Positions 13,716 through 18,420 of a stretch of 36,327 nt of DNA are shown one piece after another. The DNA comes from Clostridia bacterium (GTDB lineage Bacteria > Bacillota > Clostridia > Peptostreptococcales > JAAYPU01). The translations under genes and the position numbers were made by a program. The stretch is taken from NCBI GenBank assembly GCA_016278615.1, contig JADQBM010000049.1, positions 1 through 36,327 on the forward strand, in the 5' to 3' direction. The notes beneath the pieces were generated by a model. The model did no database searches, had not been told where the DNA came from, and saw only the letters and a list, made by a program, of their open reading frames with translations. Position 1 is the stretch's first letter, and each line of letters starts with the position of its first letter.

Positions 13716-14795
13716 CTACCTTTTATTCTTATTTTTTACATGCCTCATTACTTGTTTCATTTCCCCCTTACTCCCGAACATCCTATTAATCTTTTCATTT
13801 TCCAATTGCCGAGAGTTAAGTCCTTCATACATGATTTCTTTTTGTAGTTTCATATAGTTATTGAAGCGTTTTTCAGATATCTCTCCTGTTTCTATTGCTT
13901 TTCTTATGGCACAACCCGGTTCAGTGATGTGAGAACAATCCTTGTATTTGCATTCTGAAGCCAGTTCATCAATATCTTCAAATGTCTTGGCAAGATTTGC
14001 AGAATAAACTTGTAACTCTCTCATCCCCGGTGTATCGATCACGATGCCGCCTTTGGGCAGGAGCAGAAGCTGCCGATGTGTCGTGGTGTGCTTCCCCCTG
14101 TCATCATCTTGCCGGATTTCTTTTGTAGCAAGAACATTCTCCCCCATCAGTCGGTTAATAAGAGTTGACTTTCCAACCCCTGAAGAACCGATAAAAGCAA
14201 TGGTTTTACCTTCACTAATATAGGAATTAACACTTTGATAACCGTTTTCCTCCATACAGGAGCACGCAATAACGTCTGTTCCTACACTTACCGAATCAAT
14301 TTCAACAAGCTTATGTTGTAAATCATCACACAAATCCATTTTTGTCAGGACAATGACAGGTGTTGCCATACTGTCCCATGCAATTGACAAATACCGTTCC
14401 AAACGCCGCAAATTAAAATCAGCATTTAATGACATACAAATAAATATCACATCAATATTTGCTGCTACAATTTGGGTAGCATTTGCTGTACCAGCGGCCT
14501 TTCGTATAATAACACTTTTACGTCCCAGGATATGGTGAATAATTGCATCTCCTGATTTTTTATCCAGTCTGTCAATCATCACCCAATCACCAACGGTCGG
14601 GAAACTCACACTATCCGCTGCATTATATGCCAGCTTTCCAGAAACCCTTGCATGAAGCTCGCCCTGCTGACCAACCACTTTGTACAAATCATGATGTTGT
14701 TCAGAGACCCTTGCTAAAAAAAACTCTTCATATAAAGCGGCTTCCTGCTTAAAGTGGTCGTCTAATCCATATCTTTTTAAATTTATATCATTCAT
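13716..14795 (-). CDS. rsgA: Small-subunit ribosome assembly GTPase RsgA
   Basis: A 359-residue circularly permuted GTPase that checks late maturation of the 30S subunit. An OB-fold-like N-terminal part (VGDWVMID) is followed by G motifs in permuted order: TKMD (151-154), then the P-loop GSSGVGKS (203-210), then DTPG (254-257). The C-terminal zinc site is Cys282, Cys287, His289 and Cys295. The ATG at 14795 has GGAGG 6 nt upstream. The N-terminus is longer than usual, which suggests a paralog rather than the housekeeping copy beside the kinase/phosphatase pair. Its leader contains a 19-codon open frame and an RNA switch that can cover the ribosome binding site (see 14802-14867), so translation is probably regulated by ribosome behaviour. 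Confidence 0.9.
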   Translation of the reverse strand: MNDINLKRYGLDDHFKQEAALYEEFFLARVSEQHHDLYKVVGQQGELHARVSGKLAYNAADSVSFPTVGDWVMIDRLDKKSGDAIIHHILGRKSVIIRKAAGTANATQIVAANIDVIFICMSLNADFNLRRLERYLSIAWDSMATPVIVLTKMDLCDDLQHKLVEIDSVSVGTDVIACSCMEENGYQSVNSYISEGKTIAFIGSSGVGKSTLINRLMGENVLATKEIRQDDDRGKHTTTHRQLLLLPKGGIVIDTPGMRELQVYSANLAKTFEDIDELASECKYKDCSHITEPGCAIRKAIETGEISEKRFNNYMKLQKEIMYEGLNSRQLENEKINRMFGSKGEMKQVMRHVKNKNKR

Positions 14796-14801
14796 TTTTT
14801 T

Positions 14802-14867
14802 CCTCCAAATTGAATTTTATAAACATATTTTGGAGGGTTCAAAGATTAGTTTTTTATCTTACCCTCC
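14802..14867 (-). promoter_or_regulatory. Three-strand translational switch controlling rsgA
   Basis: On the minus strand, strand 1 (14867-14856, GGAGGGTAAGAT) pairs with strand 2 (14846-14832; 7 bp plus 5 bp with a three-base bulge). The 3' part of strand 2, CCTCCAAA (14836-14829), is also perfectly complementary to TTTGGAGG (14809-14802), the Shine-Dalgarno of rsgA. The two pairings exclude each other. Strand 1 lies inside the leader peptide frame, so a ribosome on it would free strand 2 to block rsgA. Confidence 0.7.
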
Positions 14868-14905
14868 TTTTCCATTAAAAATAACACCGACTCTTTACGT
14901 AACAT
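14846..14905 (-). CDS. Leader peptide upstream of rsgA (19 aa)
   Basis: A short frame MLRKESVLFLMEKEGKIKN ends in TAA at 14848-14846. GGAG lies 9 nt before its ATG, and the frame runs through strand 1 of the switch, ending as strand 2 begins. This layout is that of leader peptides in translational attenuation of erm-type genes. A competing 5-codon frame (MIYVT) starts at 14912 and overlaps it. The peptide itself matches no family I know; its role would lie in where the ribosome sits on it. Confidence 0.55.
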   Translation of the reverse strand: MLRKESVLFLMEKEGKIKN

Positions 14906-14923
14906 AAATCATTTCTCCTTCCT

Positions 14924-14941
14924 TATCATTACTTAATGATA
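14924..14941. repeat. Short perfect inverted repeat before the rsgA leader
   Basis: TATCATTA and TAATGATA flank a two-base centre. It lies just upstream of the leader-peptide ribosome binding site and could be a repressor operator or mRNA 5'-end hairpin. No protein can be assigned. Confidence 0.4.
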
Positions 14942-14976
14942 CCAAAAACATTTCCTACATATAAACATAAACGTTA

Positions 14977-16269
14977 TTACTGTCCAAATTGCTCTATAAT
15001 AATTTTGCTTACTCGTTTAGCCATAGCCATTATTGTAAGTATCGGTGGATTCCCCAAAGACTCTGGAAACAACGTTGCATCTGAAACATACAGGTTTTTT
15101 GGAAGTATTGGGTTATGAAAGGTTTCTGCTTCTAGTCTTGTAAGTGGCAGCATGCCACCTGGGTGTCCTGCATTTATTGTTCCAAGAAAGATATTGTCCT
15201 TTTTTATGCCCAGCCTGCTCATTATCTCCTTGCATATCTCTACTCCCTCCTGCAGCCTTTCTTTATCCCTTTTAGTTAGTATTTTTCTGATATTACTGTT
15301 ATATACACTTCCGTTGCATGAATCTGCCAGCTTTATCATCAGTGCCAATGTATCTGAGGCGGGATAACACCAACTTTTATTGAAAAAAAAGCTGAGATAA
15401 TCAAAGTAAGGAGACAAGATATAATGTTCTTTTTGTACCGCAAAAGGCATCGAAAGCTCCCTATTCTGATAACTTCCAATCTGTTCAGCGGCTACACAGA
15501 GAATTGGATCAACAAATAGTCTGCTTTCACATTCAATGCCCGAATTTTGAAGGATTATAGGTGTAGAAAAGCCACCTGCAGCTAATATGACAATATCCGC
15601 TGGATAGAATACAGACTTCAATCCTTTATGCGCCTGTACCCCCTTAACAGACCCCTTTTCAATAACAACCTTCAAAACCTTACATCCTGTAACCAACCTT
15701 GCTCCCCTATCCTGTGCAATCTTCAAAAACTGACGGCTATCCCATTTTACACCATACCGACATCCCAATACACATCTGCCACAGTTGGTACAGTTTTCGT
15801 AATTTCCAAACTTTGGTATGGGTTCTGGTTCAAGATTCATTTCCTTGCATATTTCAAACAATCTCTTTGTGGCATGTCGCCATTTATTCTGATGATCATT
15901 TGTAACGGGGATTTCGTTATAAAGGTCCTGGAACTCATCGTCCAGATTAATTCCAAGTTCCTTAAGTCCTCTATCCTTGCGAAGTGCATTACCTGCAGAA
16001 AGGGTGGTGGTTCCACCTAGGCTGATCCCTTTGACCATTACCATTCTATCATCAGTAATATTTATTTTCATTGATGAAAATAATAACTGTATTTCTCTTT
16101 CATCAAAAAACAACCCAGTTTTTTTTAGTTGTTCCAAAATAGACAAACTAAAGGAGAAAGGTTTGAAGTCTCTGCCGGCTTCTAGGACGGTAACCTGGAA
16201 TTTTCCCTGTAGCTCCTTAGCTACTGTTGCACCGCCTGCACCACTACCGACTACGATCACCCTTTTCAT
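14977..16269 (-). CDS. GMC-family FAD oxidoreductase with a four-cysteine cluster motif
   Basis: A 430-residue flavoprotein of the glucose-methanol-choline family. The FAD-binding motif VVGSGAGGATVAKEL is at residues 6-20, the family GGTTTLSAGNALR segment near 85-97, and the C-terminal half ends with NPPILTIMAMAKRVSKIII. Unusually, Cys160-x2-Cys163-x2-Cys166-x3-Cys170 (CTNCGRCVLGC) forms a ferredoxin-type Fe-S motif, so electrons may leave the flavin through an iron-sulfur cluster rather than to oxygen. The ATG overlaps the stop of the gene before it (ATGA). It is the last gene of the sigma-factor/radical SAM cassette. Substrate unknown; an alcohol or sterol/lipid-like substrate is possible. 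Confidence 0.8.
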   Translation of the reverse strand: MKRVIVVGSGAGGATVAKELQGKFQVTVLEAGRDFKPFSFSLSILEQLKKTGLFFDEREIQLLFSSMKINITDDRMVMVKGISLGGTTTLSAGNALRKDRGLKELGINLDDEFQDLYNEIPVTNDHQNKWRHATKRLFEICKEMNLEPEPIPKFGNYENCTNCGRCVLGCRYGVKWDSRQFLKIAQDRGARLVTGCKVLKVVIEKGSVKGVQAHKGLKSVFYPADIVILAAGGFSTPIILQNSGIECESRLFVDPILCVAAEQIGSYQNRELSMPFAVQKEHYILSPYFDYLSFFFNKSWCYPASDTLALMIKLADSCNGSVYNSNIRKILTKRDKERLQEGVEICKEIMSRLGIKKDNIFLGTINAGHPGGMLPLTRLEAETFHNPILPKNLYVSDATLFPESLGNPPILTIMAMAKRVSKIIIEQFGQ

Positions 16270-16805
16270 TTCGAATTTCTCCCCTCAAAAGATCCTTTGC
16301 AGCAGCTGCTGCCTTCAGTGATTCTTTGACTAAAGCAAAGTCTACCACCTCCTGAGAGTCCAAACGCCAGTCCTTCATCCAATGAAGAAATAAGCTTACA
16401 AACTTCATCAGAATAGTATTTACTGAAAAAGCACTCTTTGATAATAATTTCTCCATGATTACCATATTGAAGTTCTATCCCGATAATCTTATAAATTACC
16501 TTAAGGGCTTCTGATACCTCTTTCCATGTTCTAATATGAAGGCTTTTATTTAGATTCTGTCCAAAAATGTTAGAATTTTGATACAACCGATCTTTCACTT
16601 CTTCAATGGGACGCCCCCTCTGCAAATAGCTTTCAGCCTGCTCTTTTGTAAATAATGCGTATTTTGATAAGCATTCATCAAAAGAAAGCCCTACAAGCTC
16701 TGGCATCTTACTTTGAAAAGCATCAGCCGTTAAACGAAACAGTTCCTTCAGCTTCTTCTTCTTGATAAATTGCGGCATGTGGAGACTCATTATTTTCACG
16801 AACAT
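16266..16805 (-). CDS. Small soluble protein, ATC-hydrolase-like (uncertain)
   Basis: A 179-residue protein without membrane segments or signal peptide. The C-terminal third, with KECFFSKYYSDEVCKLISSL, then FGLSGGGRLCFSQRITEG and a final SSCCKG, has spaced cysteines and an overall pattern like the L-2-amino-thiazoline-4-carboxylate hydrolase family (PF14196), many members of which accompany redox operons. That assignment is by eye only. The ATG at 16805 has AGGAG 7 nt upstream although the gene then overlaps the radical SAM gene by 83 bp; the last 4 bp overlap the GMC gene. The tight overlaps mean the three proteins are made together. Confidence 0.6.
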   Translation of the reverse strand: MFVKIMSLHMPQFIKKKKLKELFRLTADAFQSKMPELVGLSFDECLSKYALFTKEQAESYLQRGRPIEEVKDRLYQNSNIFGQNLNKSLHIRTWKEVSEALKVIYKIIGIELQYGNHGEIIIKECFFSKYYSDEVCKLISSLDEGLAFGLSGGGRLCFSQRITEGSSCCKGSFEGRNSK

Positions 16806-18420
16806 AATCGTACTCCTGTTTTTTCATTTTCATAAAATATATTGCTGTAATGCCAATAAAGCCATCTACAACAAAGTTGGCAAAATATATCAGGTAAGGT
16901 TGGTGCTTCAAAAATAGATATATGGAAATAAAGGAAGATGCCAGTTTAGCCTGAGCCAACAAAAATGGATAAATCCTCTGCTCTGGATACCGAAACATCC
17001 GGTAAGCAAGTAAAGTGACAACATACATATAAGCAGAAGCCAGTGCCAGATAAAAACCAGTTCCTTGTAAAGGGGATGGGGGCAGACCGAAATAACCTGA
17101 CATACCATTAAAAAAGGTCAGAGCTACATCGGGAAAAAATAGAAAAATCATACCTACAACAGCAAATATTATTGCTGCAGTAAGGCCGAACAATTTATAC
17201 ACTCTCACAGGCATCCCTCCACAACTTTTTTGTTTATAATACATTCGTGAAAATTCAGACATGGAACTAAATGAAACTTCCTTCATCATCTCCAGAGTAT
17301 CTTCTTTACTCATAGGCGATTGTCCCTTATAATACTTCCTTAGTAGCTCATAGTTTTTATTAATGAAGCAACAACTTTCTGAAGGAAAATGATCCTTCAT
17401 CTTTGAAAAAATAGTATTTACCGTCTTATCTCGTACGTTTCCAAAGGTCATTGGCGTAAATACACAAGGGCTTACTTCACCAAATGCATCTATATAAACC
17501 ATTTTATTACCTGCATTACAGCCAAAGTGCTCTTTTCCCTCAAAATGCCCAAGATAGTTTACGGTTATTTTCCCTGCTTTATTGTATTTATCCTGCAACC
17601 TTACCAGACTCAACCTTTCCTCTTCTGTAATAACCGAAGCTTCGTTCCAGAAAGCCTCTCCCGTAGGTTTTGTTTCACTGAGCCAGGCTTCATGAATTCC
17701 AAGGCTAATCAGAAATTTTAAAAATTCATCTACTTGATCCTTTTTAAGCATCTCCCGAGATATAACCGTGGATACACTAACATGAATGCCTAAGTTTTTA
17801 AATATCTCTATTGCTCTGAGTGCTTCTTGATAAGCCCCTTTGTATCCTCTAATCCCATCATGTTCTACCTCTTTCCAATGGTCCAGACTAATAGAGACAT
17901 ACAAAAGACCAGCCTCTTTAAGCGCCTCAGCCAGTTGCTCCGTAAGATTCAGACCTGAAGTAAACAACTTTATTGCACAGTCATCCCCGACACTTTTTAC
18001 AATCTCAACAATATCTTTGTTTAGAAGCGGTTCTCCACCGGTAAACCCCAGCCAAAAAACACCCATTTCTTTTAGGTCTTGAATCAGTTGTTTGATTTTA
18101 GCCGTACTTAAGGGCTCCCCACTTCTATTCTTATTATAGCAATATTGGCAATTCTGTGGACAAACATTGGTCAAGCTAATTTGAGCATGAGAGGGCCCCT
18201 GCTTCTTTCCCAGAAGATGCTCATCTATAAAGCGGGAAAAAACTTTACTGTTTACCGAAGGCAAGTGGGAATGAATGATGAGCTGGCCTTCAACATTCAA
18301 CAAGTTGAACTTCCCCATATATTTGGTCAAAAACCAGTTAAGGGAAGGTTTCACCTTTATAATTTGTATGTTCGATAATAATGCTTTGACTAAAGCAATT
18401 TTATTTCTAAATTTAGACAT
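16723..18420 (-). CDS. Radical SAM/SPASM-like protein with a C-terminal membrane domain
   Basis: A 565-residue fusion. Residues 1-75 are a family-specific N-terminal region; the radical SAM core follows, with the Fe-S motif Cys87-x3-Cys91-x2-Cys94 (CPQNCQYC) and the SAM-binding FTGGEPLL. A SPASM-like cluster region has CNAGNKMVYIDAFGEVSPC and a downstream Cys-Cys pair. From about residue 400 four predicted membrane helices appear (LTAAIIFAVVGMIFLFF, FYLALASAYMYVVTLLAY, LASSFISIYLFL and YFANFVVDGFIGITAIYF). GAGGG lies 8 nt before the ATG. A radical SAM enzyme anchored this way probably acts on a membrane-bound substrate or delivers product there. No precursor peptide gene is visible beside it. 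Confidence 0.8.
   Translation of the reverse strand: MSKFRNKIALVKALLSNIQIIKVKPSLNWFLTKYMGKFNLLNVEGQLIIHSHLPSVNSKVFSRFIDEHLLGKKQGPSHAQISLTNVCPQNCQYCYNKNRSGEPLSTAKIKQLIQDLKEMGVFWLGFTGGEPLLNKDIVEIVKSVGDDCAIKLFTSGLNLTEQLAEALKEAGLLYVSISLDHWKEVEHDGIRGYKGAYQEALRAIEIFKNLGIHVSVSTVISREMLKKDQVDEFLKFLISLGIHEAWLSETKPTGEAFWNEASVITEEERLSLVRLQDKYNKAGKITVNYLGHFEGKEHFGCNAGNKMVYIDAFGEVSPCVFTPMTFGNVRDKTVNTIFSKMKDHFPSESCCFINKNYELLRKYYKGQSPMSKEDTLEMMKEVSFSSMSEFSRMYYKQKSCGGMPVRVYKLFGLTAAIIFAVVGMIFLFFPDVALTFFNGMSGYFGLPPSPLQGTGFYLALASAYMYVVTLLAYRMFRYPEQRIYPFLLAQAKLASSFISIYLFLKHQPYLIYFANFVVDGFIGITAIYFMKMKKQEYDYVRENNESPHAAIYQEEEAEGTVSFNG

Follow-up and report, generated by a model that had tools for sequence, protein, structure and literature searches.

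A Candidate erm-Type Translational Attenuator Family in Front of Accessory rsgA and Other Genes of Clostridia

Introduction

A family of mRNA leaders, mainly Clostridial, combines an upstream open reading frame (uORF) of 10-22 codons, led by its own Shine-Dalgarno (SD) sequence, with four RNA strands (S1 to S4) of nearly fixed spacing, the last of which holds the SD of the downstream gene. The genes behind it encode accessory RsgA, RNHCP proteins, GNAT acetyltransferases, methyltransferases, Smr-less MutS2 paralogues and a CD3324-family protein. Conservation, partner-specific pairings and structure modelling together make it quite probable that this leader is an erm-type translational attenuator, which would induce spare ribosome factors when a ribosome stalls early in the uORF. 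By analogy with known systems, such a stall is probably due to a ribosome-targeting inhibitor. One member of the family lies within the window, that is, the whole stretch of 36,327 nucleotides of Clostridia bacterium analyzed here. A first-pass annotation had interpreted it as a ribosome-sensing switch in front of the gene of a 30S maturation factor, and this interpretation is partly supported.

The Leader of the Window rsgA

All the elements read in the first-pass annotation are found on the minus strand, base for base, including the leader ORF with an SD of its own (Table 1). As had been described, one strand can pair either with the end of the leader or with the rsgA SD. The S2:S3 hairpin comprises 12 bp with a 3-nt bulge (14867-14856 with 14846-14829), while the competing pairing comprises 8 bp, between CCTCCAAA (14836-14829) and TTTGGAGG (14809-14802), the latter holding the rsgA SD. 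The corresponding energies are -15.5 kcal/mol for S2:S3, -11.5 for S3:S4 and only -4.9 for S1:S2, versus a mean of -10.8 kcal/mol for S1:S2 across leaders.

Table 1. Elements of the leader and its downstream gene in the window.
Feature	Position	Strand	Remark
Shine-Dalgarno of leader ORF, AAGGAG	14915..14920	minus	
Leader ORF, 19 codons, MLRKESVLFLMEKEGKIKN and stop	14846..14905	minus	stop codon adjoins S3
S1	14868..14887	minus	leader codon 7 to second base of codon 13; weak S2 partner in window copy (-4.9 kcal/mol)
S2, GGAGGGTAAGAT	14856..14867	minus	strand 1 of the first-pass annotation
S3, ATCTTTGAACCCTCCAAA	14829..14846	minus	strand 2 of the first-pass annotation; partner of S2 (rsgA open) or of S4 (rsgA closed)
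S4, TTTGGAGG	14802..14809	minus	contains rsgA Shine-Dalgarno
Accessory rsgA, 359 aa, RsgA GTPase	13716..14795	minus	ATG at 14795

Compared with shuffled sequences, the whole leader folds only modestly better (z -2.09; 5 of 200 shuffles as good). For the stretch 14887-14811, an SD pairing of equal strength occurred in 3 of 2000 dinucleotide shuffles and the fold alone was matched in 64 of 1000, while both were jointly matched in none of 2000. Conservation among relatives is stronger evidence for the window leader than these statistics. Rfam covariance models gave 0 gathering matches in the whole window and no match up to E 1 within 14700-15000; a search of 14700-15100 for terminator-like sites was negative as well.

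Two further observations concern the surroundings of the leader. A 5-codon ORF (MIYVT and stop; 14912-14895, minus) begins 7 bases ahead of the leader ORF and overlaps it, with a very short SD spacing. Upstream of the leader, 14977-18420 (minus) encodes a radical SAM/SPASM protein, a small protein without NCBIfam match and a GMC-like oxidoreductase; none of these proteins reaches the cut-off of its best-scoring family (PqqE, mycofactocin MftG and others).

An Accessory RsgA Under Putative uORF-Coupled Control

The window protein belongs to the RsgA family (TIGR00157, 178.7 bits for a cut-off of 100; PF03193, 187 bits) and matches RsgA chains in the PDB by sequence. The gene had been taken for that of the housekeeping 30S factor; judged by protein comparison, it is instead a second, accessory paralogue and not the primary copy of its genome, which holds a housekeeping-type RsgA, 34% identical to the window protein, on another contig (G000:C31). 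Among 60 genomes searched (the own genome, two of its family and the remainder of its order), 14, own genome included, encode the accessory type (E 2e-75 or better), and in 13 of them a second RsgA, of the housekeeping type, is present as well. The RsgA genes that follow a leader and were scored, 47 in number, are all of the accessory type: each is closer to the window protein, with 48-100% identity, than to the housekeeping copy of the window's genome. Remnants of an accessory rsgA with internal stops are located at G044:C1:209874-210316.

Protein searches yielded 59 accessory RsgA homologues, the upstream DNA of which was read for 58. An SD-led uORF ending in GGAGG, followed by CCTCC and then by the GGAGG SD of the gene, is present at 21 of these loci; among them, L032 carries a leader ORF (MLRKESVEIVLIREVSIEN) homologous to that of the window, ahead of an 81%-identical RsgA. 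By script, 14 others have a uORF preceding a terminator-like hairpin (in 11 of them, a short uORF like MSVVR-stop and a GCGCAG...CTGCGC terminator), 4 have just a terminator, 6 just a uORF and 12 neither, and 1 offers too little upstream DNA. With the same script, 17 housekeeping-type loci gave 1 uORF plus terminator (L002, of the own genome), 2 terminators only, 3 uORFs only and 11 with neither. These counts indicate that accessory rsgA is often under uORF-coupled control of two different kinds. The second leader type (L036, L037, L038, L039, L041, L049, L052, L069, L077, L079 and L084) consists of a 5-codon uORF (MSVVR-stop, MRVVR-stop, MTVIR-stop and alike), a long region and a GCGCAG...CTGCGC terminator-like hairpin, and looks like transcription attenuation. 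The possibility that some accessory rsgA genes (L010-L015) have tet(M)-like leaders was not retained, a distant search of L011:1280-1470 in a plasmid collection giving no match.

Distribution of the Leader Family

Two covariance models were built, R1 from 14 leaders and R2 from 22 leaders excluding that of the window. The expectation of the first-pass annotation that leader layout and pairing would be kept in relatives was borne out: the S2:S3 pairing covaries in 14 leaders, and the window-free R2 finds the window leader with 28.4 bits (E 7.6e-4 in a 98.6-kb search). In the whole own genome R2 gave no match at E ≤ 0.01, as 28.4 bits is too weak for a genome-wide search; R1 at E ≤ 0.1 matched the window leader and no further leader there, and this genome holds no RNHCP.

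At the level of the class, R1 matched 25 of 391 genomes (E ≤ 0.1), and 24 of the 29 places look like leaders, preceding 13 RsgA (including the window), 6 GNAT (one decayed), 4 RNHCP (PF12647) and 1 methyltransferase gene; L111, L112, L114, L115 and L119 are false matches positioned in coding sequence. Across the phylum, R1 matched 17 of 398 genomes (E ≤ 0.02) at 18 places: the window, 10 RsgA, 2 GNAT, 2 RNHCP, one without gene, one that was not parsed (L127) and one false match in coding sequence (L131). R2 matched 64 of 393 order genomes (E ≤ 0.01). From its 65 places, G015 and G944 were left out and L138, L139 and L152 are repeats of earlier loci. The 60 parsed places, whose gene counts include four leaders added by hand and one GNAT gene that the script had mislabelled, comprise 31 GNAT with a common FWNVY.PGC stretch, 2 other GNAT, 10 RNHCP, 10 RsgA, 3 methyltransferases, 3 MutS2-like and 1 CD3324. 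Among 26 genomes of the class of G721, R2 matched G721 alone. When 71 genomes of one Clostridial family were searched by pattern for the AAATAAGGAGTT hairpin, 14 and 9 genomes were matched. All 23 loci were screened by script and 8 more were read directly, L214 and L218 having no assignment and the other nine being covered by the script. Among the loci that were read are MutS2-like and CD3324 genes preceded by uORFs such as MKKYNYIELVVKLNK and MKKTNYKELGVVLLNK, each followed by a stop codon.

As judged from these gene assignments, the device is not specific to rsgA: unrelated genes, namely those of RNHCP, GNAT, methyltransferase and MutS2-like proteins, carry the same leader. At one locus (L009), the leader is followed by RNHCP and then by rsgA. 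Two leaders have no intact gene behind them: L136 is a copy of the L126 leader that then diverges, and L113 lacks the DNA from S3 up to where the GNAT gene begins. Rfam gave no match at the leaders in 18 further loci and three matches elsewhere in them (cobalamin, lysine and fluoride riboswitches). The family is absent from the Rfam release used, to which it represents an addition. No description of such a leader ahead of rsgA or RNHCP was found in the accessible parts of the open-licence PMC literature.

The MutS2 paralogue that bears the leader matches TIGR01069 over the first 540 of 790 positions and is devoid of an Smr domain by Pfam. All 7 genomes searched also hold a MutS2 of 793-801 aa, and the single Smr match of each genome sits in that longer frame. 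The Smr-less form is encoded at L202:2364-4250, with equivalents in G956, G995, G989, G867, G852 and G983, as frames of 629-647 aa; in G983 it is split across two frames. In the MutS2-like leader peptides of L207 and L221 (MKKNTNINESGVKLLNK and MKKNTNISESGVRLLNK, each followed by a stop codon), ESG replaces ELV.

Partner-Specific Pairings and Leader Geometry

In the 14 leaders, 5 of the 11 S2:S3 pairs are changed on both sides and 92.9% of cells are paired, with a covariation score of 0.296 versus 0.153 ± 0.026 in shuffles. One slid control also has 5 pairs changed on both sides, yet it scores 0.084 and only 39% of its cells are paired. A partner-swap test on 29 non-redundant leaders (a 70% filter reduces relatedness, and some remains) gave z -6.1 for S1:S2, -6.5 for S2:S3 and -5.2 for S3:S4, with 0 of 5000 permutations reaching each value; the median rank of the own partner among 29 was 5, 5 and 6, respectively. 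No partner preference was seen for the control S2:linker (z +1.1) or when the partners of these three pairings were read backwards (z -1.2, +1.7 and -0.8). The S3:S4 match is more than a by-product of two GGAGG motifs, since the stretch beyond CCTCC also shows specific pairing with the bases that precede the SD (z -3.4). A long-range S1:linker pairing is strong in some leaders and weaker overall (z -2.7; 25 of 5000 permutations), slight in the window (-1.4 kcal/mol), and was not kept in the main model.

For these analyses 62 leaders were tried, 61 of which remained as L121 was not parsed. The swap test left out 8 of them: L008, L046, L050, L063 and L075 (insertion before the SD or strands not found), L113 and L136 (no intact gene) and L118 (unclear). 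With 60 further leaders, minus L154 and L174 (no gene start found) and L195 (identical with L048), the total is 110.

The position of S2 is tied to the uORF: its GGAGG begins at uORF base 39 or 40 in 48 of the 61 leaders. In detail, it begins at base 39 in 39 leaders, at 36, 42, 45 or 48, i.e., at whole-codon steps, in 9, and at 38, 40 or 43 in 12, and was not found in 1. The uORF itself ends in two ways. In one group (GNAT leaders, some RNHCP leaders and a few others), the stop at codon 11-13 lies just ahead of S2, while in the other (nearly all RsgA leaders) it lies later, usually just ahead of S3.

The Leader Peptide

Codons 8-10 of the uORF usually encode [D/E]-[I/L/S]-V. Among the 50 leaders that have S2 at base 38-40, D/E stands at residue 8 in 41, I/S/L at residue 9 in 46 and Val at residue 10 in 42, this valine being spelled GTA, GTG, GTC and GTT. 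Of 110 leaders, 89 carry the motif, as do 30 of the 43 non-redundant ones, and it is written in 14 codon spellings; it is missing in 21 and 13, respectively, the window leader (LFL) being one of the 13. These counts are biased upwards, as the scripts favored start codons of motif-bearing ORFs and the models were built mostly from motif-bearing leaders. In a motif-blind listing, 15 of the 21 leaders of accessory rsgA found by protein search bear [DE][ILSVTN][VA] with its last position at residue 8, 9 or 10; close relatives (Acetobacterium) make up many of these 15. Arrest motifs of erm leaders include IFVI and IAVV; neither was seen in the Clostridial leaders by eye.

Ribosome Position and Predicted Opening of the SD

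Opening of the downstream SD was computed as a function of ribosome position, using thermodynamic folding that ignores co-transcriptional kinetics and the mRNA behind the ribosome; in short uORFs, codons beyond the stop are hypothetical positions. In the window copy, the SD has a computed probability of being open (P_open) of 0.99 in free RNA and with codons 1-8 in the P site. This value is 0.92 at codon 9, drops to 0.003-0.005 over codons 10-18 and is 0.50 when the last sense codon, codon 19, occupies the P site. The computation thus agrees with the earlier proposal that rsgA closes as the ribosome finishes the leader. The other branch of that proposal, i.e., that rsgA is open when ribosomes are missing, fits the window copy and not the family, in which the untranslated RNA is mostly predicted closed (median P_open 0.023 in 29 non-redundant leaders). 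In these relatives the free RNA would be closed with the help of the further strand S1, and therefore an early-halted ribosome, rather than the absence of ribosomes, should open the gene.

Across 43 non-redundant leaders, the median predicted cost of opening the SD is 1.1 kcal/mol with codons 7-8 in the P site, 4.3 at codon 9 and 6.8-7.3 at codons 10-17. The contrast averages 5.1 kcal/mol versus -0.3 ± 1.25 in shuffles, and exceeds 2 kcal/mol in 40 of 43 leaders versus 5 of 258 shuffles. It is robust for a first free base from P+12 to P+17, the switch point shifting between codons 8 and 10; with the shorter footprint, opening is easiest at codon 9. Closing is sharpest after codon 8 or 9 in 28 leaders, after codon 7 in 5 and elsewhere in 10. 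The early-stalled state is computed to be only partly open (median P_open 0.226 at codon 8). Leaders of some gene classes deviate: at codon 8 the SD is not open in the two methyltransferase leaders (5.0 kcal/mol), closure is less tight in GNAT leaders (2.8 kcal/mol at codon 10), and in the MutS2-type leader it sets in only at codon 12.

Proposed Mechanism and Alternatives

A mechanism can be proposed in which the leader ORF would be translated from its own strong SD. A ribosome running through it would mask S2, so that S3 pairs with S4 and the SD of the downstream gene is hidden. In most members the untranslated RNA is predicted to be closed too, because S1 holds S2 and S3 holds S4. Were a ribosome to halt with its P site near codons 7-9, it would cover S1 and leave S2 free to take S3, and the SD would be released. 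The [D/E]-[I/L/S]-V motif may be the arrest signal, as a halt on codon 9 would put it at the -1, P and A positions. The inducer would be a ribosome-targeting inhibitor or another stalling stress, as with HflXr; an inhibitor is favored from the precedents of HflXr, the Streptomyces RsgA paralogue and MutS2.

The logic of the first-pass annotation, in which the leader senses ribosome capacity, appears unlikely for the family. According to it, rsgA is open when the leader is untranslated (few working 30S subunits, blocked initiation) and closed when it is translated, so that a 30S maturation factor is made upon initiation failure. The window copy acts in this way in silico, both in its open free RNA and in its closure at codons 10-18, and its S1:S2 pairing is weak. 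In most relatives, however, the free RNA is predicted closed and S1:S2 is partner-specific, and R2 gave just two weak matches at the 17 housekeeping-type rsgA loci, namely one at L017 (E 0.0097), which overlaps the 5' end of the rsgA coding sequence, and one at L030 (E 0.088).

It is considerably less probable that the leader reports amino-acid starvation through a pause at the Ile, Leu or Val codons 9-10 when charged branched-chain tRNA is scarce. These codons are often Ile/Leu-Val, and with codon 9 in the A site the P site would be at codon 8, where the gene opens easily; yet there are just one or two such codons, 17 of the 89 leaders with the motif have serine in the middle, and no amino-acid biosynthesis or transport gene is found among the downstream genes identified. 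Slightly lower still is the probability of a structured 5' UTR that fixes a constant low expression or mRNA stability and in which the uORF is incidental. Switching is indeed a computed prediction here, but the regular position of GGAGG relative to the uORF, with its shifts by whole codons, speaks against this possibility, as do mutually exclusive pairings that are each partner-specific, none of which a constant hairpin needs.

Under the preferred attenuator mechanism, the window copy would be a derived member of the family, with L-F-L instead of the motif, a weak S1:S2 pairing and a free RNA predicted to be open. The window rsgA would therefore be shut only while ribosomes finish the leader; lacking the motif and a strong S1:S2 pairing, it may respond to any lack of leader translation, or it may be drifting.

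A broader and more tentative suggestion, to which we give somewhat less than an even chance, is that Clostridia hold a dispersed regulon in which resistance-type paralogues of ribosome factors (RsgA, Smr-less MutS2), together with RNHCP, GNAT and methyltransferase, are governed by one family of arrest-peptide attenuators with [D/E]-[I/L/S]-V at codons 8-10. On this view, accessory RsgA and Smr-less MutS2 would represent new factors that protect the ribosome from a specific inhibitor class, as HflXr does for lincomycin and erythromycin. If true, this would supply a physiological reason for the second copies of RsgA and MutS2 in Clostridia, and it would point to RNHCP and a GNAT subfamily, whose roles are so far unassigned, as parts of a stalled-ribosome response.

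Comparison With Known Systems

In Listeria, hflXr (lmo0762), a duplicated ribosome-splitting factor, is under the control of an attenuator with a 14-aa uORF, while the other hflX copy is not involved in resistance (PMC6310831). Both cases concern an accessory paralogue of a ribosome-associated GTPase under a uORF-coupled attenuator; they differ in that hflXr relies on transcription attenuation with an RLR-containing uORF, whereas the window leader is predicted to control the SD of its gene, and no terminator-like site was found around it. Similarly, the Streptomyces RsgA paralogue SCO6149 depends on WblC and tetracycline and the other copy does not (PMC7157823). This is again a second RsgA, with expression dependent on antibiotic stress, although SCO6149 is controlled by a transcription factor. 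MutS2 acts on stalled ribosomes by splitting them, and cells lacking it are hypersensitive to chloramphenicol, tetracycline and erythromycin (PMC10897456). The leader-bearing Clostridial paralogue resembles B. subtilis MutS2 in its match to TIGR01069 and differs from it by the absence of the Smr domain and by being a second copy in its genomes.

The closest parallel is with ermC and ermB, in which ribosome arrest within the leader allows the formation of an alternative structure that exposes the ribosome binding site (RBS) of the second gene (PMC5418344, PMC8274638). The Clostridial leaders share with them a short SD-led leader ORF and mutually exclusive pairings that would hide the RBS of the second gene. 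They also share, by computation, a geometry in which run-through closes the gene and an early arrest would free its RBS. ErmBL halts with codon 10 in the P site (PMC8274638), near the codons 7-9 predicted for the Clostridial leaders, which differ from ermC and ermB in their target genes and in their conserved residues at codons 8-10. As far as sequence comparison allows, layout and logic thus match those of ermC and ermB, and the difference lies in the set of target genes.
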